Below, in pieces: positions 5,622 to 60,429 of a stretch of DNA of 64,000 nucleotides. The position numbers were made by a program, and so were the translations under genes. Every line of letters starts with the position of its first letter. Within the stretch, counting starts at the first letter, position 1. A model generated the notes under the pieces. It saw nothing but the letters and a program-made list of their open reading frames with translations. It did no database searches and had not been told where the DNA came from. The stretch is taken from NCBI RefSeq assembly GCF_949628265.1, contig NC_088788.1, positions 7,316,001 through 7,380,000 on the forward strand, in the 5' to 3' direction. Source of the stretch: Cloeon dipterum (Eukaryota; Arthropoda; Insecta; Ephemeroptera; Baetidae).

Positions 5622-5640
5622 GATTCAAGCCTATTTTGTC

Positions 5641-32662: not shown

Positions 32663-32765
32663 GTTGATTCGTGTCCAGGAAACTAGTTGCAATAAAGCTG
32701 CACTTGCACTTCACCTCCGACTCGTCTCGGCTCCCAAAGCTCAATAACCTTTTTCCTATTTTCAT

Positions 32766-32778
32766 CCCTTATTTATAC
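32766..32778 (-). promoter_or_regulatory. TATA box of array gene 2
   Basis: The minus strand reads GTATAAATAAGGG, about 105 bp upstream of the start codon, aligned with those of genes 1 and 3. Confidence 0.72.
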
Positions 32779-35682: not shown

Positions 35683-35785
35683 GTTGATTCGTGTCCAGGA
35701 ATCTAGTTGCAATAAAGCTGCACTTGCACTTCACCTTCGACTCGTCTCGGCTTCCAAAGCTTAATAACCTTTTTCCTATTTTCAT

Positions 35786-35798
35786 CCCTTATTTATGC
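35786..35798 (-). promoter_or_regulatory. TATA box of array gene 3
   Basis: The minus strand reads GCATAAATAAGGG, about 105 bp upstream of the start codon, aligned with those of genes 1 and 2. Confidence 0.7.
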
Positions 35799-36599: not shown

Positions 36600-38101
36600 T
36601 CAAAATAATATTAAATTTTTATTCACGCACTCCTTTGAAACATATTCTAAAATGAAATGCAAGCAATAAATGGAAAAATAATGTGACAATCACAATACAT
36701 TATTCTTAATTAATTTCTCCAATAATAGATCAAACTAAAATTTATATTTAAACTTACATAATGATGTCATGTTGCGAATTTCTGCAACACAGCGAAACCA
36801 GAAAATATTATTAGTGCCTTCCAAGCCCTTAAAATGGAATGTTAGTGATTTTTTATTAAAAAATGAAATTTCATGCAAAACCGCCCTTCCATGCCTTTCA
36901 GACCTAAAGTGGCCCAAAATCCAATTTTTCTAATTAAACTAGTTTCGCCCTCTTTTTTGAGCAAAGGAAATTAATTGATTTCGGAGAGAGGAAAATTATG
37001 AAAAAGTGTGCAGTACAAATAAATTTTTTATTTATTTTATTTTTTATTCATTGTTTACCATGTATGAAAATTTCAAATTTTTCTGATAATGAAAACGGAA
37101 TTAAAATGATAATTGAGTAGCGCGCCGGCCACCTTCTGTAATGCAACCAGAAGCGACGGCGTGAAACGCCCCCCTCTGTTGGCCAGCAGCGCAGTGCGCT
37201 GACCAGTCAGGTTGTTTTTGCCAATTTTCTCCGAAATTTTCACTGCTAGACTATGTTTTCTCACATGATTTGGAATCCTCTCATCGAGATCTATCTGACA
37301 GCCAAAGTCTTTTTGGGGGGAAATGCGGAATTCCAGTGAAAATCACGATTGCACAATTTCTTTTAGAATTCTCCTTTTAAAACAATGCTAAGTTTGAGGC
37401 CGATTTTCTCGAAAATTTACAGCGCTGAATGTGCATTTTTTAACTGTAAATGATCCTCAGGACCTAATCTGTGTGTGTGTTAAAGGATTTTGCGGGAAAA
37501 TTCACTATCATTCCTCTTTAACTTACAGCTCGCAGTCCTGGAACGGCTCGCTGCTGCGGCGGCAGCTCTCTTGTTCATCGTCGCGGCGGCGCTCCTCACG
37601 TTCGTCCGTTTCTCTTATTTAATTATTGCTATTTCTCATAAATTCCCTCAGCGGCCAGAAGGGCCCAAACTAGATCTATTGTAAAAAGGTTTGCCACAAC
37701 CAGTTGATAAATCCCGGAGCCAATCTTAATTATTCAATAACCAGGATTATTATGCGCCGCGGTAATATTTCTTTTAATAATTTGATTTGTTTACAGTGCC
37801 GAAAAAGGCCATTCCTCTTTGTCAGCGAGCCTTTAATATTTAGATTACTTTATCTTTGATTTAGTTATATATCATGAAGGAGGACAAAAATAGTGAAACA
37901 ACGTGTATTTAGGAATTGAGTTGGGTTTGGTTTATTTTGCTCGAAGTGACTCTAACAGAGAAAAAGACTTTCCGTCGCGAAATTGGCCGTAAATTACGTT
38001 GAGAAGTTTAAGGAAAAAAAGGAAAGCCATATTTATAAATAAAACAGTGGTTCTTCGTTAGCGGCCGCGCGTTGAGGCAGATCGGGCAGAGGATTATAAT
38101 T
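36600..38101 (-). pseudogene. Fourth array unit, coding part missing
   Basis: The 3' flank of the secreted-protein gene is present, including the GC-rich marker, the TGAAGGAGGACAAAA block and AGGCAGATCGGGCAGAGGATTATAATTCC. At 38101, exactly where the stop codon of genes 2 and 3 would follow, similarity ends and unrelated sequence begins. No signal exon or body is found beyond. A 687-bp transposon sits inside the remnant. The unit was either cut by a rearrangement or formed as an incomplete duplication. Confidence 0.8.
36832..37518 (-). mobile_element. TA-target transposon, second copy of the 871-bp family
   Basis: The termini are AATGGAATGTTAGTGATT (left) and TCACTATCATTCCTCTT (right), flanked by TA (36830-36831 and 37519-37520). 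It is a 687-bp internally deleted relative of 20913-21783. The flanks rejoin as CCCTTAACTT, which is the uninterrupted sequence of array unit 1 near 28389. It contains a GC-rich stretch near 37118-37205 that I did not find in the longer copy. Confidence 0.85.
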
Positions 38102-38180
38102 CCAAATAACCGGCTAATATATTCATTTCAAAGAATGGAATTTTAAAAATGCACCAGAACAATTTTTATTTATTACTTAG

Positions 38181-40886
38181 ATCCCAGGAAATTTCCAGAA
38201 TGTTTGCAATGCAGAGAACGGTGGGACAAAAGCGGTCATTTTATCACATTGCTTCTACGCAGCCAGTCAAATATAGCAGAGCATTGGAAAGAAGGTAGTC
38301 AGCTGCAGGTAATTATTATAGAATTTTTTTTTTAGAAAATTTACACGTTTTTAATGACATTTAGTTTAGTTTTCTTAACTTTATATTAAATAAAATATTT
38401 GACACTAGAAAGCAAGGCCAACAGAAATGTCATGAATTCAAAAACACCTTGCAACACATTGTGCGTCTTTCTCTCTTTCCTCCAATTTTACTCAATTGCA
38501 ATATTTTAAATATTTCAGAGAATATACCGACATTTTGCTTGCGTGACTTCAGAGGAATTCTGAGCTGCGAAATAAAGATGGAAGAAAACAAACCATCTAG
38601 TTCTCCATTTTCCACACAAAACGAAGAAACTGATATACGTAAGATTATAAATAAAAAATATATATGCCTAGGAGGAGAATGTTATGTAATTATTTTTTAA
38701 TGTGAATTTTCAGATGGCCAACCGAATTTGGTTACGACGGACCAAGCACGCGTAGATGATCATCAAAGAGATAACTTGAACGATCTCCCATCGAACCAAT
38801 CTGAAAACGCGATGCCCTCCGCCAGCCATCAGATAATACCGCAAATCGCTCCTGGCGCTGGAAACTTTCTTGTTCAACCCAACCCAATGCTTGGACTGCA
38901 TAGTCATCATGGTTTTATTTCCGCCGTCGACCCATCCCTAAACCCCGCCGTGCCCTTATACAGCAGCAACGCACCCCAAAGTATTCTTCAAGATAGTCTT
39001 CAACGGCCGATTTCCGGCCCAAATTATATGATGGGCACTTTCCCTCCAAATCAAGGCACGGAATACTTCGCACATCGGCCAACCAGATGTGGCCTGGCCC
39101 TTCCGCCGGCTAGATTTTGGCCTGGGATTCGACCAGAATTCAGTTTGGAAAACCTTCAATATCTACAAAACGCTTTGCATCAGCAGATTATTAATCCCCT
39201 TCTTCCGCCACACCAGAGAATGGGAATTTTTCATCAGGGAGCAGCTGGTTTATACCAGCAGCAAATGGGAAATCCGACGCTCCAAATTGGCAGTAACGTT
39301 TTAAGCGCCCCGTGCCCTGGACGTGAATCACAAATGGGACAGCAAGGAGGAATTTATCCAGGAGGTGCGTTTCTTACATCTTAACAAAATGATAAAAATT
39401 GAATTTCTAACCGATATTCACCAGTTGTATAAACCCTCAGTGCTCAAAGCCGCCAACAGATGGCGCCATCGTACACTTTCGTAATAAATTTAATTTTAAG
39501 GCACTTTTCCGCTGCGTTTCGAAGCTCAATCCAGCCTCTGTGCATTCTTCACTTAATATGCTTTCTTTTGACGTGCTGAAAACCAAAATCAGTTAATACA
39601 ATAACCATAGAGTCGTGAAAATCTATTTTTTGAAATATAAAATCTTTTCCAACGTTTTACGGCGATTGGCTTAAACCGATCTTTGTTTTCAGCACGTCAA
39701 AAGAGAACATATTAAGTGAAGAATGCACTATGGTAGGATTTAGTCTAAATTCGCAGCGGAAGAACCTTAAAATTAAATTTATTTCCAAAGTACACGGTGC
39801 CGCCAACAGATGGCGCAACCACAGACTTTCTTAAAAAATTTGTTTTAAGCGGTGTTAAGGCATTTTCGCTGCGATTTCAGACTCAATCTAGCTACCGTGC
39901 ATTCTTCAATTAATTTGCTAATTTTTGACGTGCTGAAAACCAAAATCGGTTCAGCCATTCGCCGTAGAAACGTTGGAAAAGATTTTTTTATTTCAAAAAA
40001 TAGTTTTTCACGATTCTACGGCGATTGGCTGAACCGATTTTGGTTTTCAGCACGTCAAAAATTAGCAAATTAATTAAAGAATGCACAGTAGCTAGATTGA
40101 GTCTGAAATCGCAGCGGAAGTGCCTTAAAATCGAAAGTCTACGGTGGCGCCATCTGTTGTCGGCTTCGAACACTGAGGGTTTATGCAACTGGTCAATTGT
40201 GAACATTTTCAGCTGCAGGCCTCTACCCTGGTTTTACCCACTCCCCTGCTGTGCCACCTGCCTTACCATCTGATTCTGACAAACTTAAGATGCCGAGCGT
40301 AGCGAGAGAGAAAAAAAGGATCGATCCGTACCTAACTCAAACAAATTACACAGAAAAAAAGGATCCAGGATTTTGTGTTTTGTGCGAAAGACGTGTCCCC
40401 CAAACTTACAACCATAAAAAGGGCAGTCATTCCACTAGCGCACTATATGCATACAGCATATTCCAGAGCTGCGATGAGCCTACACACATTTGTGCGCCTG
40501 TTGATGTTGAGGATGGCAACGAGGTGTCGCAATGCCCAACTTGCAAAGGCATATTTTACAATCATCGCGTGGACAAACGTAATCACAACTGCATTGAATT
40601 GCCTGACGCGAAGTCGATTGATCAGGGAAAGGGAAGCGAGTATTGTCTGTTGTGCCAATTGCGATGCGAAAATGTCGAACAGCATTGGCATCATGTGCAC
40701 AAAAGTAACAAGTCGTATACAATTGGCCCGCTAGGCGAGACGAGGATCAAAACTCTATATCCGGGAAACATCGATAAAAGTCTAGAACTAAGATACGAGT
40801 ATTGTCCCTCAGAGGGTTGCGAAACTTGTCCTTTGGTGACCTTTTTAACTCGCTTGAGACGTTCGTGTGCTGGTTCACGGACGTAA
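38181..40886 (+). CDS. Pro/Gln-rich protein with C-terminal zinc-finger region
   Basis: Four exons join in frame: 38181-38308, 38521-38638, 38714-39364 and 40213-40886. The first has no in-frame ATG, so either an exon is missing upstream or translation begins at the ATG at 38578, giving 461 residues. The large third exon encodes a disordered Pro-, Gln- and Asn-rich region. The last exon has three finger-like pairs: CVLC with later His, CPTC with NHRVDKRNH, and CLLC with HWHHVH, plus CPSEGCETC near the end. The first exon also has CLQC. This suggests nucleic-acid or protein binding in the nucleus, which is inference. I do not recognise the family. Two foldback MITEs fill the third intron. Upstream lies the broken array unit. 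AATAAA is at 41021. Confidence 0.72.
39420..40200. mobile_element. Two joined copies of the ACCAGTTG foldback MITE
   Basis: The first copy (39420-39800) begins CACCAGTTGTATAAACCC. The second (39800-40200) ends GGGTTTATGCAACTGGTC. They meet at GCCGCCAACAGATGGCGC, where the right end of the first and the left end of the second are missing, so they probably recombined at that shared motif. They occupy the third intron of the zinc-finger gene. Confidence 0.8.
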
Positions 40887-42142: not shown

Positions 42143-45100
42143 TTAGACAAAGTACATAGGGTATCTAGTTGATATATCCACGTAGCTGTTCCTGCTTGCA
42201 TTGAATTCATAGATCTTTCTTTCCAATTCTCTCTCAAGGTCCTTTTCAGAGCTGCAAGAAACAATCATAAAAATAGCATCTAATGAAAGGATATGTAGAG
42301 AGGACTAACAGGTTTCTCTTAACGGGGGAGTTGGAGCCCTTGCAGTAGTGTTTGGCTCTGGCCGCGGCGAGGTGAGCGTAGTAGGTCGGCGCAGGGTACG
42401 AGATGCTACGTGTGCACCTGATGCAGAGGTGGCACAAGTAGTAGGTCAACTTCTCAATTTCTTTGTCCGTCATATTACAATCATCATGGAGGATTCTGTA
42501 CCTTGTCGGCCGTACTACCGTCTGTGGTAGCAAAAAAATATGTTTTTCAAACTCGAAAAAATACTTCGTTTTTAAAATTGAACTATTTTGGCTACTCCGA
42601 ATCTAGAATTCTAACAATCAGAATTGCTAAATCTTGGACTCATCTCGACCACCCCTGATCAGCTGAAGGGTTTAGGGGTGTTAACTTTCCACCCCTAAAA
42701 TTCTATACTTCATCAACCCACCTCCCTCGAAAAAGTAAAATTATAACACTGCCACTTGGCCTTTTCCAGCGTGTTAATTTGGACCATGGGCAGAGGTTAA
42801 AGAAAATATGTCTCAATTAAGCCTTACTTTGCCCACGGGTGCGTGGCTGACGAGAAAGAAGTCCCTCTGCCAAGGGTGGGTGATCGTGGAGTCGACGACG
42901 AAGCCAGGTTTCACATTATTTACTTCTGTTTCTACTCCTCCTCTAACTGTGTATTTAGTTTCCACAAAAAACCTGGAAAATTTCAGGGCAGTTAAAAGTA
43001 GCATAACCAAAAGTGCGCGTTTCAACTAGAGCTTCCATCAAGCTTAATTTATGTCCAGAGAAAACGATTTCCCAAAGTTGACAGGGTCCCAGGAAAAAGT
43101 TCTATTTTATTTTTAGGGAAAAACCACAACATATGATATCAAATTTCTGGGGATCCCGGTTTGCTTGTCGTTCCATGTTAATGTCTCAAAATTTCAATTT
43201 GGAGGAAAAGATGTCAGATTGACTGGATGCTCTAGTAGTAACGTATAAAGTTTGAAAAACATTTTTTTCTTTTCAATTTTAGATAAAGACCTGGTGTGGT
43301 GTCTCTTCTGCACAACAATGAACGTGATGAGTGGCTCATTTACACCAGCTTTCATGCATCCATCTTTTATGGCACTCAGTTCTTTCCTCAGAACCTAAAA
43401 AAGCAACTTGAGTTTCCCCTGCACGAGTTTTCAACTGAGCAATATTTACATCGGCGAACTGGGAGTCGCTGACGCCGTCCCTGTAGAAGATGATGTGCTT
43501 CGGCAGCTTTTTAGCATTAGCTTGATATTTTTTGACCAGAATCTCCGTGATTTCCTTCAAATTCGAAATGATCTCCTGCTTGGGCTGCTGCACACGCCAC
43601 TGCATGCTATATTTGGTCATGTTCTGGTCGAAGCTTGCTGTCACCTAAAAACAGAAAATTTGATACAGGTAATTTCAGGTTTCAAATAGATTATAGGGCT
43701 ATATTGTTTTTTCTAAGCTTCTAATCGTTACGGGATCACCAAATGAGCTCTATTAAAGTCATTTGAAGCACACGCAAAATCAACTATAACCACTTAAATA
43801 GGCCAAAAGGTTCAAGGCTAACTGAATTTTCACTGCTTTCCATCTACTTCATGGGATAAGAATAAAACATTTCCAATTTTTCCAAGCAACATCTAGTCAA
43901 AATAACCAATTTTAGAAGTCTAAATAATATAAATTCAATAAAATGTTTTGTTCTAAGAATATTACCAATGACGTTATTCAGAAAAACTTCAATCACACTC
44001 TTTAGCTACCTGGAAAAACATCTTAAATAATTTGCTTGTGAAATATCTAGAAATTTTACAAGTAAGACCATCTACAAATAATTAACCGTCAAGTTAAAAT
44101 TAGTCCAAAATTAAATCGGTCCTCGATTTGTTTGAGAAAATTAGTCAAAATATCTTACAGCTGCGACTGAAGGTTCTTGCTGCGATCCTGGAGGTGGGTG
44201 AGTGACGTCAGCCCCCATGATCATGGTGTCCTCTTTGGAAACGCTAGACATTAATGATAAAATTATTGTGGAAATTAAAGGCCAGTTTAAATAATTTACT
44301 TGTACTTTAGAGAATAATTTTGTCCACCCAGTTTCGCATTGATCTTCATGAGAATATTTTCGTAAATGGTTTTTATTCTAAATGTTTCTTTCCTATCTTC
44401 TTCTGCCGTATATTGTTTTTTAGGAACAGCGTTACCTTCCTTCATGCACTGAGTCAAGAGACATTTTTTCTCAAATGTCTGCTTCACAAGCTCTAAAATA
44501 TACAATATAACATATATTCTTAAATATGCATTGGTTAAATAATTTGAAAACTTTTACTATAGATTGAATTATTGTCAGGTATGATTACTAAATCCAAATC
44601 GCGCTTATCAGTACTACCAGCCGCATTTCCTAACCATTGTTCCAGAGCTGGTATATTTTTATATTCATAGTTAGTCCCACTTTGTATACACAAATTGTCG
44701 ATGCCAAGCTTTTTGCCTAAATCAGACAGCTTCTCTTTCACTAAACTGAAAAAATATAGTCAATATAGCATTGGGAAAATAGTTTAATTATGTTTACTTC
44801 AGATCTAATTTTTTAGTTTTGGTCAGATTGATGGCGATAATCCTCAGAGTGATTTTTTTGATGGGTGACATGAATTTGAAGTATTGGCTATTAGGGGAAA
44901 TAAACCACACTCCACCATTTTGAGGTTTTAAAGAAGCTTCCTTGCCGTAACACAAAGTGGGTTCTTTTAGGAGCGTTCCATTCACTTTGGTCATGTTCTT
45001 ATCGACTTTCAAGCCAAACTCCTGTTTCAGGCGATCATCACTATTTGATTTCCTTTCCAAAAGTTTGAACTGTTAATAAGAAAACCATCATTAGCAATTT

Positions 45101-47780
45101 AAATAACAAACAGCTGTCTGTAACTGGTTAATTAGTCAATTTCCTATTTCCATCATTATGGCTTCTTTATCTATGAAATTAAATGTTTACAGTGCATGGA
45201 ACACTGATAACACAATGTATTTACGATTTCCAACTCACAAAAGATTCAACTGTTCCTTTGCGCATTTTTGGTGTCATCTGTTTAGATATCCGGACCATGA
45301 CATCTGTTACTGTTTTATCAACGTTCCTCAGGGGCAGTTGGTATTTAGCTGGCGCCAAAGTGCAATACTGCAGCAAAAAATAATTAATTTTTTATTTGAA
45401 TCTAGAGTTGTTTCGTAACCTCCATGGGATAGTATCTGCTCCCAGATTTCAGGCACTTATTATCGACATTGATCGAAATTTTGTTACGCTTGAAATAGTT
45501 TAGCACAGAAATTTCCTTATTTTCATATATGAACCTGTGACAAAACAAAAAAATATTTCATTCTAATATTTCAAAAATGTAGCAATGCAAACTAACTCTT
45601 GCTTGTCTGGTGTTTCGGCAAGTGCGGTGATTTGGGTATATATCTCATTTTCGGCAATGGGTGATTTGTAAATGACCTGGAGACCTGGAGACACGAGATT
45701 TTAGATAGGTGTTCACACAATGAACAGTGTGTAGCCATAAGAATTTACCTCTGAAAAAGTTTCTCAAAAGGTCAGGCTTAGGTGATAATTCTTTCATGGT
45801 CTTAGTCACAGGTAGATCTGCTTTTGGAAAGGCCTTTAGAGACACTGGAAGCATTAGATTTTGGATTCAATTTTTAAATTGATTGCCAAAATTGCAAATT
45901 AAAAAAAAAGAAACGTAGCCCCTTAGTGTTCCGTCGCCAATGATTTCTTTTGATATGCTTAAATAAAAGATTGGTTCAGCGAACCGCATTAGTTTGCTTT
46001 AACGTTTTTGAATAATTACTAGCCTATATAGCCGTGTTATAAACATATTCATGTGCAGTAACAGGATAGTGCTTCAATAAGAGCAAGCATATGTTGTGGG
46101 GCTGTCTGTTGGTGGCTTTGAACTCTAAAAGGGCTTAATGCCAGTGAATTAAAACCGCTTACCATCAACATTGAGGTATAGAGGAAACTCAAAATTTATC
46201 TTAGGTTCTCCTAGAGAACCAGCCTGGAACCAGCCTGTGCAAATATCAATGATTTGAAATATATTATTCCGAAAAGGAATTTCATCTGCCTCAGCGTTAA
46301 AGAAGCATCGGCCAGCCGTCCTACCGAAACTGAAAATATTCATGAGTCTCAGTGAGGAATAGATCCTAACTATTTAAGTTCCAACCAATCCATTCCAGGC
46401 TGGCGAAGAATCACGTCGAGTGCCTGCATAACCGTTCGGGGAGATCTAGCAACGACACCCTCGTCAAGTTTGATGTATTTCAATATTTTTTCAGTCTTCA
46501 ACAGCTCCTGATTTTCGGTCACCTTCACCATGACTTTAAATAAAGAGCTCACATGTTCTAGTCCTTCAACACGAAGTGTTTCAGAAAACTGAAAACAGGA
46601 TAGAAAGATAATTTGCATTTAAAGAGGTTGTACACAGCTTTGAAAAATAGTTGCTTAAGCCGAAACGCAGCAGTCAATCGACTATTGAATTAGTTTAATC
46701 AGATCTACCAATGATTCCTTAAACAACAGGCGCTGGTTGCCGTACAATATTTTGTTGCCGTCGTACGCAGGATATCGTTTTGGCCAATGTGACTCACAAA
46801 ATGTTCGCATGACATCTCTGCAAATCAGTAATTAAAGCATTTGTATTTTAAAATAAAAATCCTAGTATAAATAAGTACTTCTTAAACATTCTTGGGACGT
46901 TCACCCACTTCTCTTCATTTTTTTTGTTTAATACTTTCATTTTCATATCAACATCATACTGAATTATCTCCATATCAGCCATTTTATGAAGGGTGGTTTC
47001 AACTTTGAAGTGGTTAGTGAGAGCTTCACAAGGTATTTCCGGTTCTACAGCAGGCTTGGCTTGTTTTTGCTCTTTCTTGGGTTTTATCGTCACGAAGCCG
47101 TCGTCAGGAGGATTCTCCTTCTGAGTTCCAAGTCCTGCAGCCTGCGTGTCTCGAATTCGCCTGGCGAAGTCTTCATACAAATTCGGCTCATTCTTATCTG
47201 ATCTGCACATGTCAAATTTATTTAAGGGATTACTTGAAAGAATTTTTTTAAAAATTATTTCCGCCAATGTTCCATTAATTTCGGATGCACAGTTAAATTT
47301 AAATCCTGGAGCGAAAAAAAGACCTTTCGGCGTTGGACGAGACGGCGCTGGAGGTGGACTCCGGACTCTGCACCGACCGGGCGCTGCTTCTGGCTGCTGA
47401 TTGTGATGAGCTGTTGCTGGTGACCGACGAAGGCGTCCTTGGACTCGCCACGCTGGACCTGCTGGAGGCGTCGCTCGCCTCGGGGCCCCACGCGCTGCTC
47501 GACGGCGCAGAAGACCCAGGGCTCAACATGCCTGGGGGCATCCTGCTCGGCGTCGAGGCACCCCTGTTTTGAGCACTGATCTGCAGGTTTTGCATGCCGC
47601 TGGCTACATTGCTGGACTGGTTGCTCTGACGATTCCGCGGACGATTCGAATCTAAAAAGGAAATATTTTCTCTCAGTTTCTGATCTGTACGGGTGAACCC
47701 ACCATCGGATTTTTTTCCTTACCTCTGTCTCTCCTGTCTTTCCCATCTTTCCCCGAACCTTTATGTTTCTTCGGCGGCAT
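42143..47780 (-). CDS. Argonaute, siRNA-class (Ago2-like), copy 1
   Basis: Nineteen exons join in frame to 1039 residues: 47723-47780, 47324-47651, 46879-47202, 46709-46817, 46386-46588, 46163-46329, 45749-45844, 45597-45684, 45420-45534, 45239-45367, 44798-45069, 44558-44745, 44300-44492, 44159-44243, 43450-43644, 43291-43394, 42828-42972, 42310-42521, 42143-42251. After a basic start and a Ser-rich disordered region (about 20-128) come the N domain (from about 188), PAZ (about 429-539), MID with the phosphate pocket IYKLVK, LTQC and KINAKLGG, and PIWI. The slicer tetrad is complete: Asp769 (GADVTH), Glu809 (KQEII), Asp841 (FYRDGVS), His983 (YYAHLAAARA). It ends PMYFV. Divergence from miRNA-type Ago1 and the long low-complexity N-terminus argue for the siRNA branch. 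A paralogue lies upstream on the same strand. Confidence 0.94.
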
Positions 47781-50120
47781 TGTTGTCTCATTCGCAAAGA
47801 TTCTGGAGAGAAAAGAATTTGAGAATTTAATGGAATGGCAAGAGGGAAATGTTATTGTCCAACGGTGTCTTAATTTTGTAGAAGCATTTGGGGAATTTGA
47901 ATTCCTTAACAGCAAAATGTCTGAGCGGGGCTGAGGAATGACAGAAATTTGTCCAGTTGCTAGTTATTTTCCTCATGCGACAGAAAAATACAGATTCCGA
48001 GAAAATTCATCGGATTCCCCGCATATAGTGGTGGTTAGGAACAATATAATTCAAATATTTGAGCCACTAAATTCCATAAATTCCAATGAGACATTATGTT
48101 TTAATTTTTAATTTGTACAGCATGGAAAAGTTAATGTCTGCCAGGTTACACGTTTCACCAGTTCTCATAAGAACCCCTTACAAAAGTAGGGGTGGTGAAA
48201 ACTGTAATTTTTCCATACATAAAACCCGTCAATTTAATTAATTTTAAAGTTGTGTTCGGCAGATTCTACTTCATTCCGAATGATGAGGAAAATGAAATCA
48301 ATTTGAGGTAAAACCGCGTTTCAGGCCTTGGTTTGTAAAAAAAACCATTAGAATTTCTGAAAATATTTTCCAATTTACTTACTGTTTGCTCCGAGTAGAG
48401 AAATTGGCTGGGACAGTCTGCGCTGCTTTACTGCTTCTGAACCGAACCTAAAGCTGCGAGGAAATAAGCTCTTTAGGTGAAGTTTGTATAGGGTGGGGAA
48501 CACTTCAGGGGGAGAGAGGCAAGAGGTGCGGCATCAGAAACCTGTGGATGGTGCCCTTTTGTCGCGACGGTTGCTTCTGGAAATAGCAATAATGAATGGT
48601 TAGAATGTGAGAATTCTGTCCAGAGTCTTGTCTTTAAAGTGCATTTAAATCCAAGAAAAATACTTTTGTGCGAGCCCCCAGTGTTCAAAGTTTAAAGCCG
48701 CCACGGCATTGAGATTTTAAGACTTTGTTTTGGAGTAAATACAGTCAATGTAAAGCAATAAAATTATTTCTAAAAATTAATATTAGTCCAGCCAATCACC
48801 AGGCAATTTTAATTCCAAACAAATTTTTTTCTACAGTTTCTTTGTTTGTGAAAACTTCTGTTACTGAAAAAAAACCGTTTCTTCACGTTTTATTCAGGAC
48901 CATTACTCGAAGCTAATTTTCCTATTTCACCCTATGTACTAGTTTATGTTCTTGTTTCATGAACAGTGTAGAAGCACGACCAAGCAGGCCGAAATAAAGA
49001 AAATTAACATTTGAGGAAATGTCCAGAATTTCAATACAGCGCATAGATTTTGTTCATTTGTGCAAGCAGTCGTTTGTTTTTGTGTTGAGCCATACTATTG
49101 AAAACCATCAGATACAAGATTTTAATTTAATATTCTTTAATTGTGCTATGCAATCTACATAGTTAATTCGATGAAAATTTTACCACGACTAATAAGTTGA
49201 GCGTTCAACCAAATACGCCGGGGACCTTTGATAAATATTCCTGGAATTCAAACAATTTTCCTGCGTTCAGAGGAAAAGAAGGTTTGATAAGTGCTTTAAC
49301 ATACATTACGTTCGTTCCGTTTGGCGCCAGTTGCAACAGTTAACAAAATTCTAAAATAAAGTTAGTACCAAATTTCCGACGGAATTGTTTTATGGAAATT
49401 TAAATTAACACCTGAGAATCGATTAAAATTTAGTGAATCCACGCAATTTGGCCTAAATACCGACGTTTAAATGTGGACAGTTATGCAACCCGCACGAAAA
49501 GGCCGTTCTACGGCACAGTTTCCTCTGTTGAGCAAGGCGTACGTGTCAGCAACATCAACTCAAATGTAAACGCTGAGAAAATTAGCTCGACTGAAGACGT
49601 AAAGAAAACGATTTCAGGCTTATTTGATCAAGTAATTCGATTAATTAATTAATTTGTGGGAATTTTATTTGAAAAGGAAGTTGACTGTTGGAAAATCATG
49701 TTGGGCAGGGTTGGGATTGTCCGGATTGTCAGACGATTATGTTCGAAAGAAATGAATGTGGTTTAGCAGGTTTTGGAGCCAAATTAATAAGAGAATTTAG
49801 CGTCACCTTTCATGCCCAAATTAAAATCGAAAGCAAAAACTGTCGATCTCGTCTTGAATTACCAACTTTAATTATGGTAGATTATTTTGATTTACTCCGA
49901 TTTTAATTCTGATTAAAAAACCTTCATTTTCGCATGATAATCCAGTTTTATTTTAGGGTGATTTTCCCAAAGCATAACAAAAATGAAATAATTAGATGAT
50001 ACATCATAATGAACAAAGAAAAAAAAACAATATCATTTTTAATCAGATTTTAAGCCGAATCCCAAAATCCTTGAAGGCGGCTACAGGCAGTGGCTCAAGG
50101 AACGGACTGTGCAGCTCAAA
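47781..50120. other. Spacer between the two Argonaute genes
   Basis: It should contain the promoter of copy 1 and the 3' end of copy 2, where an ATTAAA follows the stop. I find no exon that extends either gene with confidence, and no named repeat. Short open frames on the plus strand near 49.7 and 50.0 kb are not protein-like. Confidence 0.5.
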
Positions 50121-53100
50121 TCAGATAAAGTACATTGGGTATTTATCGGTGAGTGCCTTCATGGTGTCGACTTTTTCTAATACTGACTTGCTCACTTCCT
50201 CCCATTTAATCGTGATCTCCTCATCAGTCCTACAGCAAAGCAAAAAATTGTGCATAAACAGAGAACAGAGAGCACGTCAAAAGTTGATCAATTGAGTGGC
50301 AAAAACCGGTGGTGAAAAAACTGGGAGGTTAGCGAATGAAATCCTGAATAGGAAAACTTACAGGCCGGTGAAGTCCACAGTAGGCATGTCTTGCATGATA
50401 GCGAAGAAGTAAACCTTAGCCCTGGCGGCGGCCAGATGAGCGTAGTAGGTCGGGGTAGGGTACGAAATGCTTTTGGCGCACTTGCTGTACAACATGCACA
50501 AGGCGTAGGTCATATTCTGCACATCATTGTCGGTCATACTGGCGTCGTCGTGTAGCAAGCGATAACGGGCAGGCCTGGCTGTGCCCTAAAAGGAGTTTTT
50601 ATTCAAATCAATTTCCAAATGCCAAAAATAAACAGAATCATACTCTTGGGCATAGTTGGCTCACGAGGTAAAAGTCTCTGTGCCATGGGTGCGTGATCTT
50701 CGAGTTGACCATGAAGCCTGGTATCACGTTGCCATTTTTTTCAGAAAAGAACCTGCAAGAAATTCAAAGCAATTAATCAGGGATTAGATTGGTGTAAATT
50801 TCTACAGTAAAAATGATCTAATATAATGACTACTCAAATGCCAAAGATGCGGCAAATGTAGATATTTCGGTGATTCTAAATTCACAAAAAGCTCAACGGT
50901 TTGGGTTTTAACACTTTTCTAGCGGCTTTTTAAGGACTAATATCTGGTGTTTCAATAAAAGGCCTAGGTGCGTGGAGGCGGAAAGATAGGGCCTGAGCAC
51001 CTATGCGGCCACTTAGGCTGCATGTTTTCAACTTAAAAAAACATTAAACTAAAAACTTGCCTCGTATGGTTCCTCTTTTGCACGACAAGGTAGGTGATTT
51101 GAATCTCCGTAGAGATATTGCTGCACGCTTTCTGTATGGCCAACAATTCTTTGTTCATGACCTAAAAGCAAAGAAATTGAATATTGAATGCACTAGCTGG
51201 GAAAGACTTAAAAATATTTATTACAGCAGCCAACTGGCCATCGCCGACACCGTCTCTGTAGAAGATAATGCGTTCTGGATAAGATTTATTCTTTTTGTGG
51301 TAGTATTCAAGGTGTGCCTGCGTCATTTTCTCCATTTCTTGGATTATTTCCTGCTTGGGCGACTGCACACGCCACTGCATATTGTAGTTGAACAGGTCAT
51401 TTTCGTGACTGGCCGTCACCTGAAGAGGAAGAAATGCACGCAGTCCTTAATGGTTACTTCACATGACGCTTTTAGATACAAATTCGAGCATAGAAAATTT
51501 TGTTTTTGATCCTGTATTGTGACAGGTGCAGCCACAATGGTAATTAATAAACTCCAGCCTGAACATTTATTGTATTTGTGTAGCATGACCTGATGCAGAT
51601 AATATTCGCAGTGTTCTTTAGAAGAATTAACTCACTATTGTTTAAATGAAAAATGGAATTTGCATATATTTACCAATTATGATAAATTAACGCCCATGGC
51701 TTCATCCATGTGAATACTAAAGCATTATTTAATATTATTCCATAGAAGTCAGATTAAAGCGACCTTGCGGAATTAAATTTTGAGAAAATACATCTAACTT
51801 ACAGCAGCAATGGAAGGAGAATTTGTTGAGCCTGGTGCTGGATGAGTCACGTCAGCGCCCATAACCATGACTTTCTTGTCGCAGAGTCTATTGGAATGGG
51901 GTAGGGTTTATTTATCAACAATAATGTATGTAAAAGATAATTCTTTACGGTTTATTTAAAGCATGGTTCTTTCCGTTCAGCTTAGCGTTGATCTTCAAGA
52001 GGAGATTAGTGAAATATTGATCCTTTTTTTGTATATATTTTTCTCTGTTCACATCCAAGGTAGTTTCCAATGTTGACCGCTTCAAGCACTGAGTCAAGAT
52101 GTTGAGATTTAGCTCAAAAATCTGCTTGATTTCCGCTGAACAAAAAAATATAAATTATATGACAGCTCTGGTTGTCAGCGAGGAACTTATACTAAATAAC
52201 TTACTAGGAGTGGTGATAATGGCTTTAATTCCTCAATTAGGTTAAATATAATGAGAATTTAAAAATTTGAAGTGGCAGAAGCAATTTTTTAAATTAATTT
52301 TAATTCACAGAATGATTTTAAAAATATTTTAAATAAAATTGTTAAAAAGCAAAACTGGTGTAATTATATATGTAATGGTAAAAGTTGTGTAAATCAATTT
52401 TGAGTTTATTCCAATATCTTATTAACATATATAAAATTATTAAGCAATAAACTCTGAAAATATCAGTATGTATAAAAGTTCACTGTCAACTGATAATCTG
52501 TCTCTAATCAATAGGAATCTGAACAAAATGTCATCCCGCAATTTTATTTTAAAGTTCCCTCTCTCTGTAACCAAAATAAAAAGCTATATATATATTATGA
52601 TCAAAAAATTTCTACAGATTGCTAACGTCACATCAAAGTGTACACGTTCGAGGCGAACATAATATGATATTAAGCTGAGCAAAATTAGGGTTCAAAGTAA
52701 TGTAAATACGTTTCAAGATATTAAACTTTACCTAGCTTGCAACACAGACAGAACTAATGGGCATAGTGATTATGAACGTACGGTAAGGGTCTTCTGGTGT
52801 AAACTTGTCAGGCATGATAACAAAGACCAACTGATAGAATATCATTTCTTTCTTTGTAACTGATGCCAGCTCATCCATTGATTTTTGTTCCATATCAATC
52901 GTTGGGATATTCATGTTAAGGTTATTCCCATATTGTTCGATGTTTTCAATCACATCGCTTAACAAAAGAATTGTATGATTGATATACAGAGTAACTATTT
53001 AGATTATACCGTAACAATTTTCCTTCTAGTGGTTTTCCTCGTGGATCAAGAGCAAGTAACAACCACTTAGGTTTTGCGGTGTCCAGCTCTCCCGCCATTA

Positions 53101-56100
53101 GCAACTTAACACTACTATTGATAGTCCACGAGCCTCCTCCTGTGATACATATTTCTTCGTACTTGAGGATAGGAGTATCAACCTTTTTGCCAAACACCGT
53201 AGCCATTGATTTGTTGACGCTGATGCCAAACTCTTTAAGGCAATTAGATTGGCTCGTCAGGTTAAGTTCGGCCATCTTCAACACATAGAAGAGAAAGCGC
53301 TTTTTAGTTTTGAAATGTTGAATCTAGTTCATGTCAATTCAAGTTATTTACTACACAGGTGTAAGTATCCACAAGAGATTAACCAATAAATTTAAATGGA
53401 ATATATGCTTCAATGAAAATTTAAAAATTGCGGACCTTTGAAAATCAAATTCCCCGTGGAATAAACTTTGAATATGTATGTCGTCGTGATTAATTTAGAA
53501 TTTAACTAAGAAAACTCACATTTTCCTCAATGTAGCGCTTCCTAACCTCTGGACTAGCAGCAGCTTCTGAACACAATTTGCTGATTTGAGATCTATTGAG
53601 ATTTCGAATCGGCACTGTTTGATATCTTCGCGCCGCAATGGTACAAAACTGAAATTAAATTTATTTAAGTTCCTACAACAACAACAACAAAAAACACAAA
53701 AAAACTTACTTTCATTGGCAACAGACCTTTATCAGATTTCACACAGGGCTCTTCATCTTTGTACAGCCTGATTGAATATTTTTTATCGAAGTATTCTGCC
53801 ACGTTTCCTTCATGAGTCTGTTGGTTTACTTCAAATTTAAATGATCTGGGAAAATTTAAAAATTAATTAATAATATATAAGATATTTCAAGTGAAAACGC
53901 ACTCGGTTTTGTTAGGAGCTCTACCAAGCCCAGTCGCATTCAATAGCCTGGTTAGCGACACGTTTGGGGTACGCACTTCATACTGAATCTTCGCACCTGA
54001 AATTTTTCTTATTAATTAAACTCAAACTTGTAGCGTGTCCCGATATGCAATATTCACTGATCATGGTTTTTGTAACAACAATTTTCATATATATATATGG
54101 ACTTGCTGTGCAGGGTAAAATGACCATTTCTCGCGTTATTATTTTTAAGGACACTAATTTAAATCTGAATTAATTTCATTAGACAAAAGATTATTCAAAT
54201 TTTGCAAGCTTGATCATTTCGGTTTTTACATCAAACATGATCTGTTTAGTGTGTAGGACGCAAAATAAACAAATTCTTGGAATAAACCCCGATTATTATG
54301 TTATAGTTTTTACGGTTACCTTTTTGGTATAAATATTTATAAATAAAACCAAAATATCAGCTAAGAAAATCTGAAGCCAGAATAAATATCTAATACCGTG
54401 CAAATTCGCCTTGTCCATATAGGGTCAAGTGGAGAGTAAAAATACAAAACGAACAAAACATATCACACAATCTAGAAACCTTTTTCAAAATCCGATTTCC
54501 TGACCTAAACTCCCACCTATACTATACTTAAGTTCTGAAAGAGAGTTTCAAGTATTAAATATATTCAAGAGATTTATTTTTTTTTTGCTCTTTTTATCCC
54601 TGTCCGAGGACTGGGAAGGGCGCGCACTGCACTAGCACGAATGCTGAAACTCCCGGGGGCCAATAACACCGCGAACGGACAACATGGGCGCACCAGGCCG
54701 CACAGGGACCCAGCCCACTCAAGGGCCACTTGCCTCCGCACCGAGGACTGCATTGAAACGCTAGATATTCGTCACGTGAAGCCAAATCGCGCAATACGCA
54801 TGCTGGAAAGGTGCAAACCAGCCCGTCGAGCAATTTGAGCATTTCGAGTCCCTAAACTAACCACTTTTTGCCATCTCTGACATTGGGTAGCCAGTATTAG
54901 ATCTCTGAACTGCTCAAATACCTCCCATTACTTTGACACTCCTGAGTGCCTTGACAATGCGAGCCAACTTACTTACTACATTTCAATAAAAATGAAAGTT
55001 TTTCTGAGGCTAAAAATAAGCAATCTCACATAGTGCATTGGCTATTATTTTACCACATACCACATCTCAGTCAAAGTTCAACAAATCCAACACGCAAGTT
55101 TTTCTTAAGACTTTTTCATTCTCAGTTGTAATGAATAAATAAAGTCATACATTTGATAAAATCCTTTAAGTTAATTTTATAACGTTTAAACTCAGAGCGA
55201 CTAGGTGATTATAAAAAATCAATATCCAGGTTGCCTCTTATTCTATTAACAATTCACAGTGGCCACAAGCAACTATTTTTTTTTTTTATAAAAATCTCAT
55301 TGAATATTTTATGAGAAAAATTGCAGCAGTTAACTCAAAAGGAAACTTTAAGTGCAATATTTGAATAGCCTTTTAAGACAGTTAGTTTCCAAGTTTAAGG
55401 TTGGATGAAATGGCTAAGAATGGCATAAATTTCATATTATTATGCCGTTAAAATAATGCTGACCACCTTAATTCAACCCATTTCACATATCTACCTCTCA
55501 AGAAGTCTTGGAGTGCAGTAATCTTTTTCAATTCGGTCACTGGTTGCGGCTTCCGGAAAGCACAGTGAGCAGCTATAAGAGAGGAATAATTTACGAGGTG
55601 TTAGTCACGGCTAATTGTAAGCAGGTTTACCATCCAAGCACAGGAAGAATTGGGGCTGACATTTTGATTTAATGCTATTGTAGGGCATTTCACCAACAGC
55701 AATAGTTTGGAAAAGGCCTGACCAGTGCTCGGCCCCACCTGTAAGACCTTGTGGTTCGGGTCTGTCAGCAGGAACCTTGAAAATGCTTCGCCCGACTTTG
55801 AACGTATTGTCTCTGTTGGCACAATAAAGAGAACCATGCAGTAAAACACCTTTGTCAAATGTGAGCAGGTAGAATAACCTCTCCAGTCCAGCGCTGAGAA
55901 GAATCACTTCAAGCGCTTGAATAGGTTTTTGAGGATAAGTCTTGCCATTGAATATTGATGGAATTTTGGCGTACTCAATGATATCACCAATTTGCACACT
56001 TGAAGGCTTCTGGCATTCTTTCACCACGACTTTGATTCCTATGGTCTTGGTTAAGTTTCCAGGCAAAATCTCTTCAACGTGGACAACATCACTTAACTAA

Positions 56101-58283
56101 AAATAAAATCAGAAATTACTAGCAGGCTGGCAGAGTTTATCGGGTTGTGTTTTCTCATAAGATATACCACCCAGTTTTTTTTCATAAACTTTCTTTGCCA
56201 AATTTAGCGCCAGATAATTATGATATTTTAATTTTATTCCTGGTGTCTAGAATTAGCTGTTTCATCAGGTGAAAATGAATCTGCTTGAAAATTATCTTTA
56301 ATCTGCTCTCATTTCTGCAAAATATTTATTTCAATATTTTTGAAGTCACCAACGAATCTTTACAACGCATCTCAGGGTGCCTTCCGCTAAATCATGCATA
56401 CTTTTAGGCTCAATAAATTTGAAGACTTTCATGATCATGAAAAATAAGAACATGACCATGATTTCAATCTAGCGCATCATTTAAAAGCTTAGAAGCTGAA
56501 TTACTAGCATCAATTTCTCTTCGCCATTTAATTCAGCACACTTGGGGCAACATTTTACCATTGCAAAAATCTAAGTGGCATTTTTTGGTATTTTCTGATA
56601 ATTTCAACTAAATAATTGAGTTGCGGGTTAGGTTAGAGACACACAAATTTGAACAATGTTTGTGTTTTCCTCTGAGAGTGAAAAGATCAAATAAAAATTC
56701 CAACCAAGAGCAAAATTATCTAAATGATGAAATAATTAACGGAGGTGAGATATCCCAAAATTAGCTCCAAATTTCAGGCAAATTTTGAAACATCGCCAAC
56801 AACCAGAAGTTGCAAGAATTGGGGACTTATTTTGCTTTTACTACTTCTTCTTCAAGTAAAATCTGCGAGAATTATTTGAGCAGCAAAAAATGGCTTGTGT
56901 CGTCATGGGAGGTATTTGCACCAACAGATATCGTGATACTTGAAAGATATCGTCTTAATTATATGGCAGAAGAATATTATTTTAAAATTTATTTTAATGT
57001 TTTCCAACAAAATTGTAGATTGCGTAAACATTTTAGAAAAGAATGCATTTTAGAGCCATATGAACCCAGTAGGATGCAAAAATTGAAAATATTGCAAGCT
57101 GGGCATTAGTATAAACAGAAGTAGTGTGCATTGCTTTTTAAACTAATAGTTTTTTACATGCATGTCAAGAGTTTTTCTTACCTCCGTCTTATTCTCTGAC
57201 AATTTCGCGCTGCAGTACAACATATGGCTGCCGTCATACGCAGGAAACTTTGTAATAGACTGCTGTATAAGAAATTCCTTTAAAGCATCCCTATGATTAG
57301 CAGAATATATAAAATATGAAATTAGAGCGAGATCGTAAATCAAACCTGCGGAATTTGCTGGGGCATTCTTTGCCTTCTGTACGGTCATCACGAAAAATAT
57401 TCATCCTGACATCATACATGTAGATTTTGACCTTTGGATTTATGGTGATTTCGAAGTGGTTCACGTACGCCACATAATCTGGATCAGTTGTTTCCTGCTT
57501 TTCCTTCGTCTCATTGAATATCCTTCTTCTAAACAAAAAATTTTCCTTGGCAATTCTGCAAGCAAAAGGACCGTCTCGCATAACATTCATTCAAACACCT
57601 AAGAGGATTTATACATTTTGGCGGTTTTTTGAGAGACATCGGGACTGATAGCGCCTTCTAGAGGAGAATTCACAGGCCCCCATGCACCGTCAGACTCACT
57701 TCCAGCACCAACTGAACCTGCTACTCCTCTAAGTCCAGCATGGCTGAAAGTGATATGATGAATTTATTGATTTATAATAAATTTGCTGCCTAAGAGGGTC
57801 GACGTTGGTAAATATTAAGTTATCAATATTCAAGACCAGCACATGAATTAATTCTCATGATATGGCATCAACCTGTAAGCGCTGGAAGTGGAGGCCGGAC
57901 TCAGCACTGATTGGGCGCTGCTTCTTGACGACGAATCGTCACTGGTGGCTGACGTCGGACTCATGAGGCTTGATCTACTAGAGGCAGCACTCAAGCGACG
58001 GGTACCACCTAGCGCTTGTTCAGGGGACAAGGCCGATGAGGAGGAAGCCTCGCCTTGATTGTCACCAATTCTCATACCTCCCACCGCACCGGCAAGGTCG
58101 GATTCACTGCCCTGATTGCTTGCAGAGGAAGCCGTACCTGTTTAAAGAAAAAATAATCAGATTAATAGACATGAAAGAATTTTTTTCTAATGTGAAAATT
58201 TAAGCATATGTTTTGCATAATAATACTATACCACTTTCTTCCTTCTTGGTTTTAACCTTGAGAAGCTTCTTTTTCTTCACCAT
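50121..58283 (-). CDS. Argonaute, siRNA-class (Ago2-like), copy 2
   Basis: Nineteen exons join in frame to 1030 residues: 58232-58283, 57873-58137, 57615-57743, 57346-57528, 57182-57290, 55631-56096, 55495-55572, 53903-53996, 53710-53845, 53520-53648, 53010-53275, 52782-52957, 51949-52135, 51803-51887, 51225-51419, 51061-51161, 50644-50752, 50362-50585, 50121-50229. Order is Ser-rich N-terminus, N domain (NHFEI), L1, PAZ, MID (PYPEIK, LTQC, KINAKL) and PIWI. The tetrad is complete: Asp769, Glu809, Asp841, His970. It ends PMYFI. The linker after the N domain is one exon here but two in copy 1. Intron 16 uses a GC donor (GAG|GCAAGT). Intron 7 is 1.5 kb and holds a SINE-like element. The fourth exon could start upstream, at another in-frame acceptor. 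Confidence 0.93.
54577..54967 (-). mobile_element. SINE-like element, copy B, in Argonaute copy 2 intron 7
   Basis: On the minus strand it runs from TTGGCTCGCATTG to an A-rich tail (T-run at 54577-54586 on the plus strand). It is the reverse of copy A at 33553-33974 with scattered differences. It lies in the same orientation as the host gene. It provides the uninterrupted sequence that proves the TA insertion at 20913-21783. Confidence 0.78.
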
Positions 58284-59311
58284 CGCGAAGTTTCACCAAT
58301 CTTCTAAACAAGGAGAGAAACATGAAAATGTTTGAGCTGGAAGAATTAGTGATGGAATGGAATGGCATGGCAAGTATTTACGATCCCAAACGAAGGAAAT
58401 ATTTAAGGGCTTCGGCATTTCAAATATCTAAAAAAATTTGCGTTCTTTGCGAGCAAATTGCAACTCTAGAGAAAAATCATCCAATACATTTCAAAAATGT
58501 AGGCCGCAGATGAAAGAAAATGTCAGATAATCGAGTATAGGGCTTGTAAATAAATTTACACAGCAGTTGTGCGTTCTGAGACCAAATGTAAAAATTCCAA
58601 TCCAGCATTCACCGAACTTCCCACCACGCTTTGAATTCCAATCATACATTAGCTGATTTCCAAGTATGTGATTTCAGTTTAAATTACTTGATTTTCATGT
58701 TTAAATATATAAAAAACAATTTCATCTTATAAATAGCTCTCTCACAATCAGCTCAAAATAATTTTAAAAGATTTCCAGATATAAGACTATATATTATATC
58801 ATTCCCGTCTGCATGGATTTTTTTAAACTAACAATACATTGCAAATTACAATAATAGGATCATTATCAATGCACCTAGAGGTTAAGATAGTTTCCCAAAC
58901 ATCTAGTTCCTAAATGAAGCAAAGATTTTATAATTCTGACTTACTGTTCAAGAGTAAACTGCTAATAGATGAGAGGACGGCTTCAGTCAACTTACAATTT
59001 AGCTGCTCGCCTATTAATCCTCAAGTGAAAGATAAGCTAATGAAGTTCCGAGATGCAGAGGGGAAAATTTGAACTCGAAAGGCTAGTCAGGGAAGGGTAG
59101 GCAGAACCAATGAGCTGTGAACAAATCTTATGCGGAATCAGGTAAGAAGTGTCACTCAATTGGATGATCTGTTTCATGGTTTAAGGGGAAACTACTTGAT
59201 TTTATGGATTTTATCTAATATAACATCCTGAGGAAATTACCAGTCTCCTCATATATAATTATTTATTGTTCAGGGCAGAAGAATGTGTCAGAAAAAATTA
59301 GTAATAAATTG

Positions 59312-59736
59312 ACCAGTTGCATAAACCCTTAGTTATTGAAGCCGCCAAAAGATGGCGCAACCACAGACTTTCTTAAAAATTTTGTTTGAAGCGGTTTTAA
59401 GGCATTTCCGCTGCGATTTTACACTCAATCTAGCTATTTTGCTTTTTTTTAATTAATTTGCTAATCTTTGATGTGTTGAAAACCAAAATCGGTTCAGCCA
59501 TTCGCCGTAGAAACGTTCAAAAAGATTTTTTTATTTCAAAAAATAGTTTTTCACGATTCTTCGGCGATTGGCTGAACCGATTTTGGTTTTCAGCAAGTCA
59601 AAAATTAGCAAATTAATTGAAGAATGCACAGTAGCTAGATTGAGTCTGAAATCGCAGCGGAAGTGCCTTAAAATCGATAGTCTACGGATGCGCTATCTGT
59701 TGGCGGCTTCGAACACTTAGGTTTTATGCAACTGGT
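59312..59736. mobile_element. ACCAGTTG foldback MITE, copy 3
   Basis: It begins ACCAGTTGCATAAACCCTTAG and ends TTTTATGCAACTGGT. The two arms match the copies at 9345-9775 and 39800-40200, with the shared CAGCA(C/A)GTCAAAAATTAGC and CTGAAATCGCAGCGGAAG motifs. It lies upstream of Argonaute copy 2. Confidence 0.85.
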
Positions 59737-60429
59737 GAAAGTTACCAATGCTTAAAATACAGGGTTTATTATTTATTAATTAAGATGAAAATACCAGTAA
59801 TAATCTCATCTGGAAGCAACTGCATGTAAGCAGGCAGGCCACCATTACACCTTTGTGCCGTGTTTATTGGGGTAGAGTGGTCGGAGTTTTTGTTAGGCTA
59901 ACTCTCCTCTGGCAATCGCATTATATGTACCCTTAACAACAAAAGAGCCGATTCCCTGTAACATGCATGTACTAGACCCACAACACCATTTTGGCAATTA
60001 TTATTGCCACAACCAACTCTAAAATCTCTGAAAAATCAGATTAGCCTTAAATTATTTTCATTTCCGCAATTTTCAGAGCAATTATGGTTGGAGCTTGAAT
60101 TTATCATGGCCTTTACTGCAAGGTAAAAAAATAGTTTAATCAAGAGATGCATATATATTTTATTTAACTACCCTTCGAAACTGATACAAAAATTTGTTTG
60201 ATTTTGTAAAATATATTGTTAGTATTTTTGTAGATATTTGAATAATATTATACAGATGACTTGGCAAAAGTTGATCTTATTGTTCACGGACCAAAATAAT
60301 TATTGATCCGTATAGTTGCCTGCATTACGTATTACATTGCAACACGCGAGATCATACTATATATTCTAAATATTACATTGACCAGCTCATTTTCGAAGGG
60401 TTTCATGCCAAATGAAAAATTTTAGCAGA

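Follow-up and report, generated by a model that had tools for sequence, protein, structure and literature searches.

In textbook insect RNAi a single Argonaute serves the siRNA pathway, with a few present in other insects. Many insect Argonaute-2 proteins, though not all, carry an N-terminal tail rich in Gln or RG. In nematodes the WAGO proteins represent a system in which many Argonautes, mostly devoid of the catalytic tetrad, function downstream of few Dicers with guides made by an RdRP. Duplicates of Ago2 are known in other arthropods (PMC4824172, PMC6505081), and the expansions described for the Drosophila obscura group and Glossina (PMC6505081, PMC4824172) are, like that reported here for the mayfly Cloeon dipterum, lineage-specific and fast-evolving. 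The mayfly differs in belonging to another insect order, in carrying 13 Ago2-like loci and in having a subset of these with a changed tail and an apparently eroded PAZ domain.

One account states that Cloeon possesses the RNAi genes 'AGO1 and AGO2', with copy number unmentioned in the available text (PMC11597413). Another reports, for C. dipterum, 12 Piwi-like sequences in the Piwi/Ago3/Aub orthogroup, with Ago-like genes counted as a control (PMC12147562). That expansion concerns the same species and the same Argonaute superfamily; our own scan of the genome gave five Piwi-like loci, and the available text of the paper gives no Ago-like number for C. dipterum. Our literature search found no report of an Ago2 expansion in this species, although Ago2 expansion as such is already known.

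The window that we analysed is a stretch of 64,000 nt from the C. dipterum assembly (NC_088788.1), and positions are given in window numbering; all features listed are on the minus strand. The original prediction was of two complete Argonaute genes lying head to tail across 42143..58283, with 19 exons each. The span is exact, with the start codon of gene B at 58283 and the end of the gene A stop codon at 42143, and the spliced models are open. Gene A (47780-42143), which carries the public name 'argonaute-1-like', indeed has 19 exons and encodes 1039 residues; gene B (58283-50121) has 20 in the spliced model and encodes 1017. From the stop of B to the start of A is 2,340 bases. The models are regular: every intron of A is GT-AG, B has a single GC-AG intron (after exon 17) and 16 of the 18 introns of A are common to B in position and phase. 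Pfam Piwi is matched with E-values of 6e-85 (A) and 5e-80 (B). ArgoN is also above the cut-off in both, as are ArgoL2 and ArgoL1 in B; ArgoL2 in A falls under it. Gene A is identical, letter for letter over 1039 residues, to the public C. dipterum protein P0001, so that its gene model has been arrived at twice. With B as the query, no near-identical protein was present among the best 120 matches in a database clustered at 90% identity; this absence could mean that B is unannotated or unexpressed.

All eight residues of the DEDH tetrad and of the Tyr-Lys-Gln-Lys pocket for the guide 5'-phosphate are kept in both genes, as had been predicted. In A the MID pocket consists of Tyr692, Lys696, Gln707 and Lys742, the last three encoded by exon 13 (44300..44492) and the Tyr692 codon lying at the exon 12/13 junction. 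The first tetrad aspartate, D769, is in the GADVTHP motif of exon 14 (44159..44243), Glu809 and Asp841 are in exon 15 (43450..43644) and His983 is in the PTYYAHLAA motif of exon 18 (42310..42521). The corresponding pocket in B is formed by Tyr681, encoded by the last part of exon 13, with Lys685, Gln697 and Lys729 in exon 14 (51949..52135); D756 (GADVTHP) is in exon 15 (51803..51887), Glu796 and Asp828 are in exon 16 (51225..51419) and His957 (PTYYAHLAA) is in exon 19 (50362..50585). A and B are most likely slicer-competent Ago2 paralogs that became specialised following duplication.

The two proteins are 34.5% identical overall. By domain the identity is 28% in N and L1, 32% in PAZ, 27% in L2, 24% in MID and 49.5% in PIWI, and on these values the earlier statement that they differ widely in N, PAZ and MID stands. 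Against the two ordinary mayfly Ago2s compared, A and B are 34-35% identical overall, whereas the two pairs of ordinary copies that were measured are 56% and 73% identical.

Both genes resemble insect Argonaute-2 in the order N-PAZ-MID-PIWI, the tetrad, the pocket and the clade to which they are assigned; they depart from it at the N-terminus and in PAZ. Most of a Ser-rich tail is encoded by exons 1-2 of A (47324..47780; about 190 residues in total, extending into exon 3, with one RG dipeptide) and by exons 1-3 of B (57615..58283; about 179 residues in total). The two tails are related (44% over 91 residues, E 5e-12, when aligned directly to each other with no low-complexity filtering). A count of their composition gave 1 RG, 3-6% Gln and 20% Ser, and found no Gln-rich or RG-rich tail in either protein; the tails of ordinary mayfly copies have 5-8 RG dipeptides, as opposed to 0-1. 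The PAZ region is present in the alignment. In A (exons 8-10, 45239..45684) it gave no Pfam PAZ match in the protein or the genome scan; in B (exons 9-11, 53520..53996) it scored 27.3 bits against a curated cut-off of 28.8, with no genome-scan match. Ten of the 13 Ago2-like loci did match PAZ in that scan, two with scores under the cut-off; the three without a match are A, B and C4:14.5 Mb. PAZ thus appears to be eroded in A and B, and as the match is weak for B and absent for A, guide handling may be impaired.

Clade membership was assessed with an alignment of 51 rows, including 32 of 223 public proteins. The main tree omits two short Piwi-like fragments (C3:11.2 and C2:28.3 Mb), and quick trees further omit C4:14.5, C4:28.64, C4:28.65 and C5:3.029 Mb and the Piwi-like C2:24.9 Mb. 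The Piwi rows, which serve as the root, are loci of the same genome, with no reference Piwi protein among them. A phylogeny had been proposed as a check on the original prediction, and in it both copies lie apart from Ago1 and from the Piwi-like loci. A 100/100 branch separates three own-genome Piwi-like loci from all AGO rows, and A and B are on the Ago2 side of a 97/99 branch, separate from Ago1, the vertebrate AGO proteins and the tick proteins. Since those tick proteins, one of which is named argonaute-2-like, fall with Ago1 in the full tree, 'Ago2' for A and B means the insect Ago2 clade. Grouping A and B with Ago1 is rejected (p-AU 1.9e-60, the group having been defined after the tree was seen); A is not an Ago1 and its public name is wrong. 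The Ago1 of this genome is at C1:18.2 Mb, scoring 3216 with a vertebrate AGO1 guide and 1068 when the guide is a Cloeon Ago2. Intron positions are a weak means of telling Ago2 from Ago1, because Ago1 has four of its own seven introns in common with A. In quick trees from which the longest branch (C4:14.5 Mb) and the other members of their own clade were removed, A and B, each taken singly, cluster with the mayfly Ago2s (SH-aLRT 96 and 98), and a MID-PIWI quick tree places all mayfly Ago2s together (99). The ordinary Ago2s of C. dipterum and Neocloeon triangulifer (P0008, P0010, P0011) form one mayfly Ago2 group with A and B once that longest branch is omitted, and 13-15 introns are common to A or B and two complete C4 models. 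Assignment of A and B to the insect Ago2 clade is therefore supported by the sequence comparisons, with the position of their group among insect Ago2s not resolved in the full tree.

Spliced alignment gave 13 Ago2-like loci in the C. dipterum genome, A and B included; the genome also has a single Ago1 locus and two Dicer loci, the latter with Dicer_dimer and RNase III matches. The related mayfly Neocloeon showed one Ago2 among the best 120 matches in each of three lists. Ten of the 13 show no visible damage in their models, four of these ten being seen in part only. Four Ago2-like branches are also represented by proteins on shorter C. dipterum contigs (P0008, P0013, P0018, P0117). A and B belong to a fast-evolving chromosome-3 clade, with C3:8.07 Mb and C3:7.53 Mb, which lacks the RG-rich tail seen in ordinary mayfly copies. 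C3:7.53 Mb is placed here by the main tree (98/72); its sharing of synonymous codons with B (z 0.9) and C3:8.07 Mb (z 1.7) is little above chance, and with an ordinary copy it is z 3.4. Among A, B and C3:8.07 Mb such sharing exceeds chance (z 4.2-7.3), against z 1.1 and 0.1 in comparison with Ago1.

The original prediction described A and B as a tandem pair. They are adjacent and on the same strand, but the description is too narrow for two of 13 loci. A groups not with B but with a locus 0.7 Mb distant, C3:8.07 Mb (100/97 in the main tree; 89 in the MID-PIWI quick tree, where the order inside the clade is not settled, at 18). A also shares more synonymous codons with that locus (z 7.3) than with B (z 5.0), and A and B as sisters have a marginal p-AU of 0.026. 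They are probably not sisters, and with only 34.5% identity a simple recent tandem pair was rejected.

We hold with good confidence that A and B are intact protein-coding Argonautes of the Ago2 clade, which would have arisen by duplication within the mayfly lineage as part of a birth-and-death family. The MID pocket of each is predicted to bind a 5'-phosphorylated guide, and the DEDH site would cut matching RNA as in other Ago2 proteins. A Ser-rich tail without RG repeats, together with an apparently eroded PAZ, may alter the loading partners or the grip on the guide 3' end; these changes imply that after duplication A and B could have become specialised in guide source or tissue. With two Dicer loci found, numerous effectors would depend on a small number of guide-producing enzymes.

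The age of the clade is a separate matter, compatible with this explanation. The clade may predate the divergence of Cloeon from Neocloeon and have been lost from the latter, rather than being a fast-evolving Cloeon novelty, and on this we are almost evenly divided, leaning slightly against. In the quick trees that include A or B singly, each falls outside the Neocloeon and ordinary Cloeon Ago2s (SH-aLRT 97 in both). However, A and B are long branches, which tend toward the base, and the data do not reject a grouping confined to Cloeon (p-AU 0.176). Synonymous sharing with an ordinary Cloeon copy is above chance for A (z 4.2), and near chance for B (z 1.7).

A bolder proposal is that the chromosome-3 group constitutes a functionally new class of Argonaute in animals. 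Its members would be slicers derived from Ago2 that have a Ser-rich and possibly phosphorylated tail, a reduced PAZ and a loading route other than the ordinary one, and they would belong to a set of 13 siRNA effectors supplied by two Dicers. This would be an insect counterpart of the nematode WAGO radiation, similar in combining many Argonautes with few Dicers and different in that A and B keep the tetrad. We regard this as speculative and rather unlikely.

We likewise consider it unlikely that A and B are redundant copies under relaxed constraint, heading to pseudogenes with no separate role. Relatives have already been damaged: C4:14.5 Mb has lost three of the four tetrad residues and is a catalytically dead paralog, C3:7.53 Mb has an in-frame stop within PIWI and C4:28.65 Mb, unlike C4:28.64 Mb, is without the MID exon. 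The apparently eroded PAZ and the want of a near-identical public protein for B among the matches listed are in keeping with decay. Nevertheless, the frames of A (19 exons) and B (20 exons) stay open over roughly 3 kb, and the catalytic and pocket residues are kept despite the low overall identity. Among 29 reference Argonautes 77 columns are invariant; 71 of these are conserved in A and 66 in B, compared with 47 in C4:14.5 Mb. The NG86 dN/dS is under 1 (0.37 for A and B, 0.42 for A and C3:8.07 Mb), values that are rough because dS is high. These comparisons show A and B to be evolving fast, yet evidently under constraint. A dedicated division of labour, with one gene antiviral and the other directed against transposons, the example originally given, is very improbable: the genes are open, strongly diverged and adjacent, and Ago2 duplicates of the Drosophila obscura group are described as having turned tissue-specific (PMC6505081), but as two of 13 loci that are probably not sisters they do not mark the level at which functions were divided, and the data do not suggest such a split.

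The 13 Ago2-like loci of this mayfly offer a natural experiment on the multiplication of Ago2, for which the candidate causes are tissue specialisation and an arms race whose opponent is a virus, a transposon or meiotic drive. Ago2 copy number would also have to be reckoned with in any RNAi tools planned for Cloeon.

Two Argonaute genes of the Ago2 clade, A and B, lie head to tail on the minus strand, with 2,340 bases between the start of A and the stop of B. Gene A (47780-42143) has 19 exons and encodes 1039 amino acids; gene B (58283-50121) has 20 exons and encodes 1017. The original prediction of two complete, adjacent genes on one strand is thus borne out, whereas its count of 19 exons holds for A and fails for B in our model. 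All introns are GT-AG, the sole exception being a GC-AG intron after exon 17 of B. Both proteins gave Pfam matches to the Piwi domain (E values of 6e-85 for A and 5e-80 for B), to the N domain of Argonautes and to linker 2, which in A scores under the curated cut-off. The PAZ match of B is also under the cut-off, and no PAZ match was obtained with the A protein. The A model equals a public Cloeon dipterum 'protein argonaute-1-like' (P0001) over all 1039 residues; no near-identical protein was found for B among the best 120 matches listed in a protein search with B as the query.

Alignment to 29 reference Argonautes (Ago1 of this genome, Ago2s of Neocloeon, Ladona and other insects, and sequences from ticks and vertebrates) shows that A and B have an intact DEDH tetrad and, in the MID domain, an intact Y-K-Q-K pocket, as had been predicted. 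The wide divergence also noted at that stage is real: identity between the two proteins is 34.5% overall, 49.5% in PIWI and 24-33% in the remaining regions. As a measure of conservation we used the 77 columns that are invariant across the references, of which A keeps 71, B 66, and the loci at C3:8.07 Mb and C3:7.53 Mb (contig and position in this assembly) 67 and 70, respectively. The rows for ordinary Cloeon Ago2s keep 72 to 76, save three lower rows: C5:3.029 Mb keeps 70, and the two partial models at C4:28.6 Mb, in which columns are missing, keep 65 and 66. The damaged paralogue at C4:14.5 Mb keeps 47.

The pair does not stand alone. A Piwi-domain search of the genome (190 Mb, ten contigs) gave at least 59 exon matches, such counts being lower bounds. 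They were sorted by eye into 19 loci: 13 Ago2-like, one Ago1 (C1:18.2 Mb) and five Piwi-like. The 17 loci outside the window were modelled with our own protein-to-genome spliced aligner; six Ago2-like models, for which the locus sequence was used in part, are partial at the N end. The Ago2-like loci are at C1:36.8 Mb; C3:7.358 (A), 7.366 (B), 7.53 and 8.07 Mb; C4:1.250, 1.257, 1.289, 14.5, 28.64 and 28.65 Mb; and C5:3.022 and 3.029 Mb. The genes predicted as a tandem pair do adjoin, but they are two of 13. The Piwi-like label denotes a low score with all three guides, in a comparison that included no reference Piwi protein; four of the five have Gln for the last pocket Lys. A PAZ scan of the genome matched 16 of the 19 loci but missed A, B and C4:14.5 Mb; no additional Argonaute locus was noticed in it. 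In Neocloeon triangulifer a single Ago2 (P0011) was found among the best 120 matches listed in each of three protein searches.

All eight tetrad and pocket residues are intact at seven of the 13 Ago2-like loci, including A and B. Elsewhere, three tetrad residues are gone at C4:14.5 Mb, C3:7.53 Mb has one in-frame stop, in PIWI, and the pocket Tyr is His at C1:36.8, C4:1.257 and C4:1.289 Mb. Two inverted copies occupy C4:28642500-28657500 (dS 0.035), and the one at 28.65 Mb is without the MID exon that bears the 5'-phosphate pocket. That the expansion is an artefact of a single assembly is disfavoured, since four family branches recur as proteins from shorter Cloeon dipterum contigs (P0008, P0013, P0018 and P0117). 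The public Cloeon protein nearest to C3:7530980-7537635 is P0117, at 70% identity, which is unevenly spread (one early exon at 92%, a stretch of the middle at 45-46%); P0008 differs far less from its C5 counterpart. The mismatch could reflect rapid turnover, mosaic copies or the existence of a separate paralogue.

The PAZ scan also matched two Dicer loci and a lone site. Dicer_dimer and RNase III matches occur at two loci, and one Dicer-dimer exon (C5:2978524-2978775) lies about 44 kb from the tandem ordinary Ago2 pair at C5:3022304-3029939. The lone PAZ match (C5:3163870-3164019, 33.7 bits, one stop within the stretch) covers a part of the profile resembling that at the two Dicer loci; genome scans gave no adjoining Piwi, Dicer_dimer or RNase III match.

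In our main tree (49 rows, 875 columns, LG+C20) a 97/99 branch places A and B with the insect Ago2s, in keeping with the predicted affinity. Grouping their clade with Ago1 was rejected (p-AU 1.9e-60) and A and B as sisters marginally so (p-AU 0.026), both for groups defined after inspection of the tree. A joins C3:8.07 Mb (100/97), with B next to them (99/93); these, C3:7.53 Mb and P0117 form one clade (98/72), whose position among the Ago2s is ambiguous. In trees with A alone or B alone and the longest branch removed, each groups with Neocloeon and ordinary Cloeon Ago2s (SH-aLRT 96 for A, 98 for B) and branches outside them (97 for both). A MID-PIWI tree unites all mayfly Ago2s (support 99). 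Tests on the 49-row tree rejected neither a single clade uniting the mayfly Ago2s (p-AU 0.228) nor a grouping confined to Cloeon (p-AU 0.176). The most plausible reading of these placements and of the groupings left standing is that A and B are mayfly Ago2s, which may have arisen either before or after the Cloeon-Neocloeon split. Of the 18 intron positions of A, 16 are common to B, 13 and 14 to two complete C4 models, and four to Ago1, which has only seven in total.

Synonymous-codon sharing at identical residues, expressed as z against chance, is above chance for A-B (5.0), A-8.07 Mb (7.3), B-8.07 Mb (4.2) and A with an ordinary Cloeon copy (4.2), and is not above chance with Ago1 (A 1.1, B 0.1). 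Weaker values were found for B with the ordinary copy (1.7), for C3:7.53 Mb with A (2.5), B (0.9), 8.07 Mb (1.7) and the ordinary copy (3.4), and for A with C4:14.5 Mb (3.0) and a Piwi-like locus (1.7). By NG86, dN/dS is 0.37 for A-B (0.70/1.87) and 0.42 for A-8.07 Mb (0.60/1.45), rough ratios given the high dS. Two ordinary copies give 0.20 at dS 0.85; three of four younger family pairs give 0.42-0.54 and the fourth 0.20. These values speak for A and B as probably fast-evolving yet constrained proteins.

The window also contains several repeats. At 28388-38108, three to four copies of a unit of about 3 kb (72-89% alike) stand in tandem and carry repeated minus-strand ORFs (29190-29582, 31768-32124 and 34766-35143), two of which were scanned with no convincing Pfam match. 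A repeat of about 400 bases, in both orientations and 73-92% alike (9345-9772, 39416-39802, 39799-40198 and 59307-59739), resembles a small mobile element; a second of similar length (33552-33974 and 54579-54968, 83% alike) has its latter copy within intron 8 of B. Minus-strand ORFs at 5217-5624 (16.9 bits, under the cut-off) and 11096-11473 (32.4 bits, over it) match the TAZ zinc finger.

The Cloeon genome has been reported to have AGO1 and AGO2 (PMC11597413, in the portion available). In the available portions of PMC12147562 a Piwi-like expansion of 12 sequences is described for Cloeon dipterum, compared with the five Piwi-like loci counted here; Ago-like counts serve there as a control, and that text gives no Ago-like number for this species. 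The available part of PMC6327564 holds nothing on mayfly Argonautes, and we found no published account of a Cloeon Ago2 expansion in open-licence PMC text, figures and supplements aside.

A and B are open slicer-type Ago2 genes within an expanded, fast-evolving family. By analogy with that family, each would bind a 5'-phosphorylated guide and cut guide-matched RNA. The division into antiviral and transposon siRNA roles raised in the original prediction is not supported, nor is any other particular role for A or B (drive suppression, testis). Ordinary mayfly Ago2 tails hold five to eight RG dipeptides (five Cloeon rows and Neocloeon), those of A and B one each, and those of C3:8.07 and 7.53 Mb none. 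Ser makes up 16-20% of the A, B and 8.07 Mb tails and likewise 16% of that of Neocloeon; the three are mutually related in one-to-one comparisons with the low-complexity filter off (E values of 4.7e-12, 5.9e-6 and 9.3e-10). In the PAZ region, most of 18 aligned rows have a near-PxxPCLxVG motif, where A has KCLKSG and B EEPCVKS. The altered tail and PAZ are a pointer to altered loading or handling of the guide 3' end, and A and B may accordingly be specialized Ago2s.
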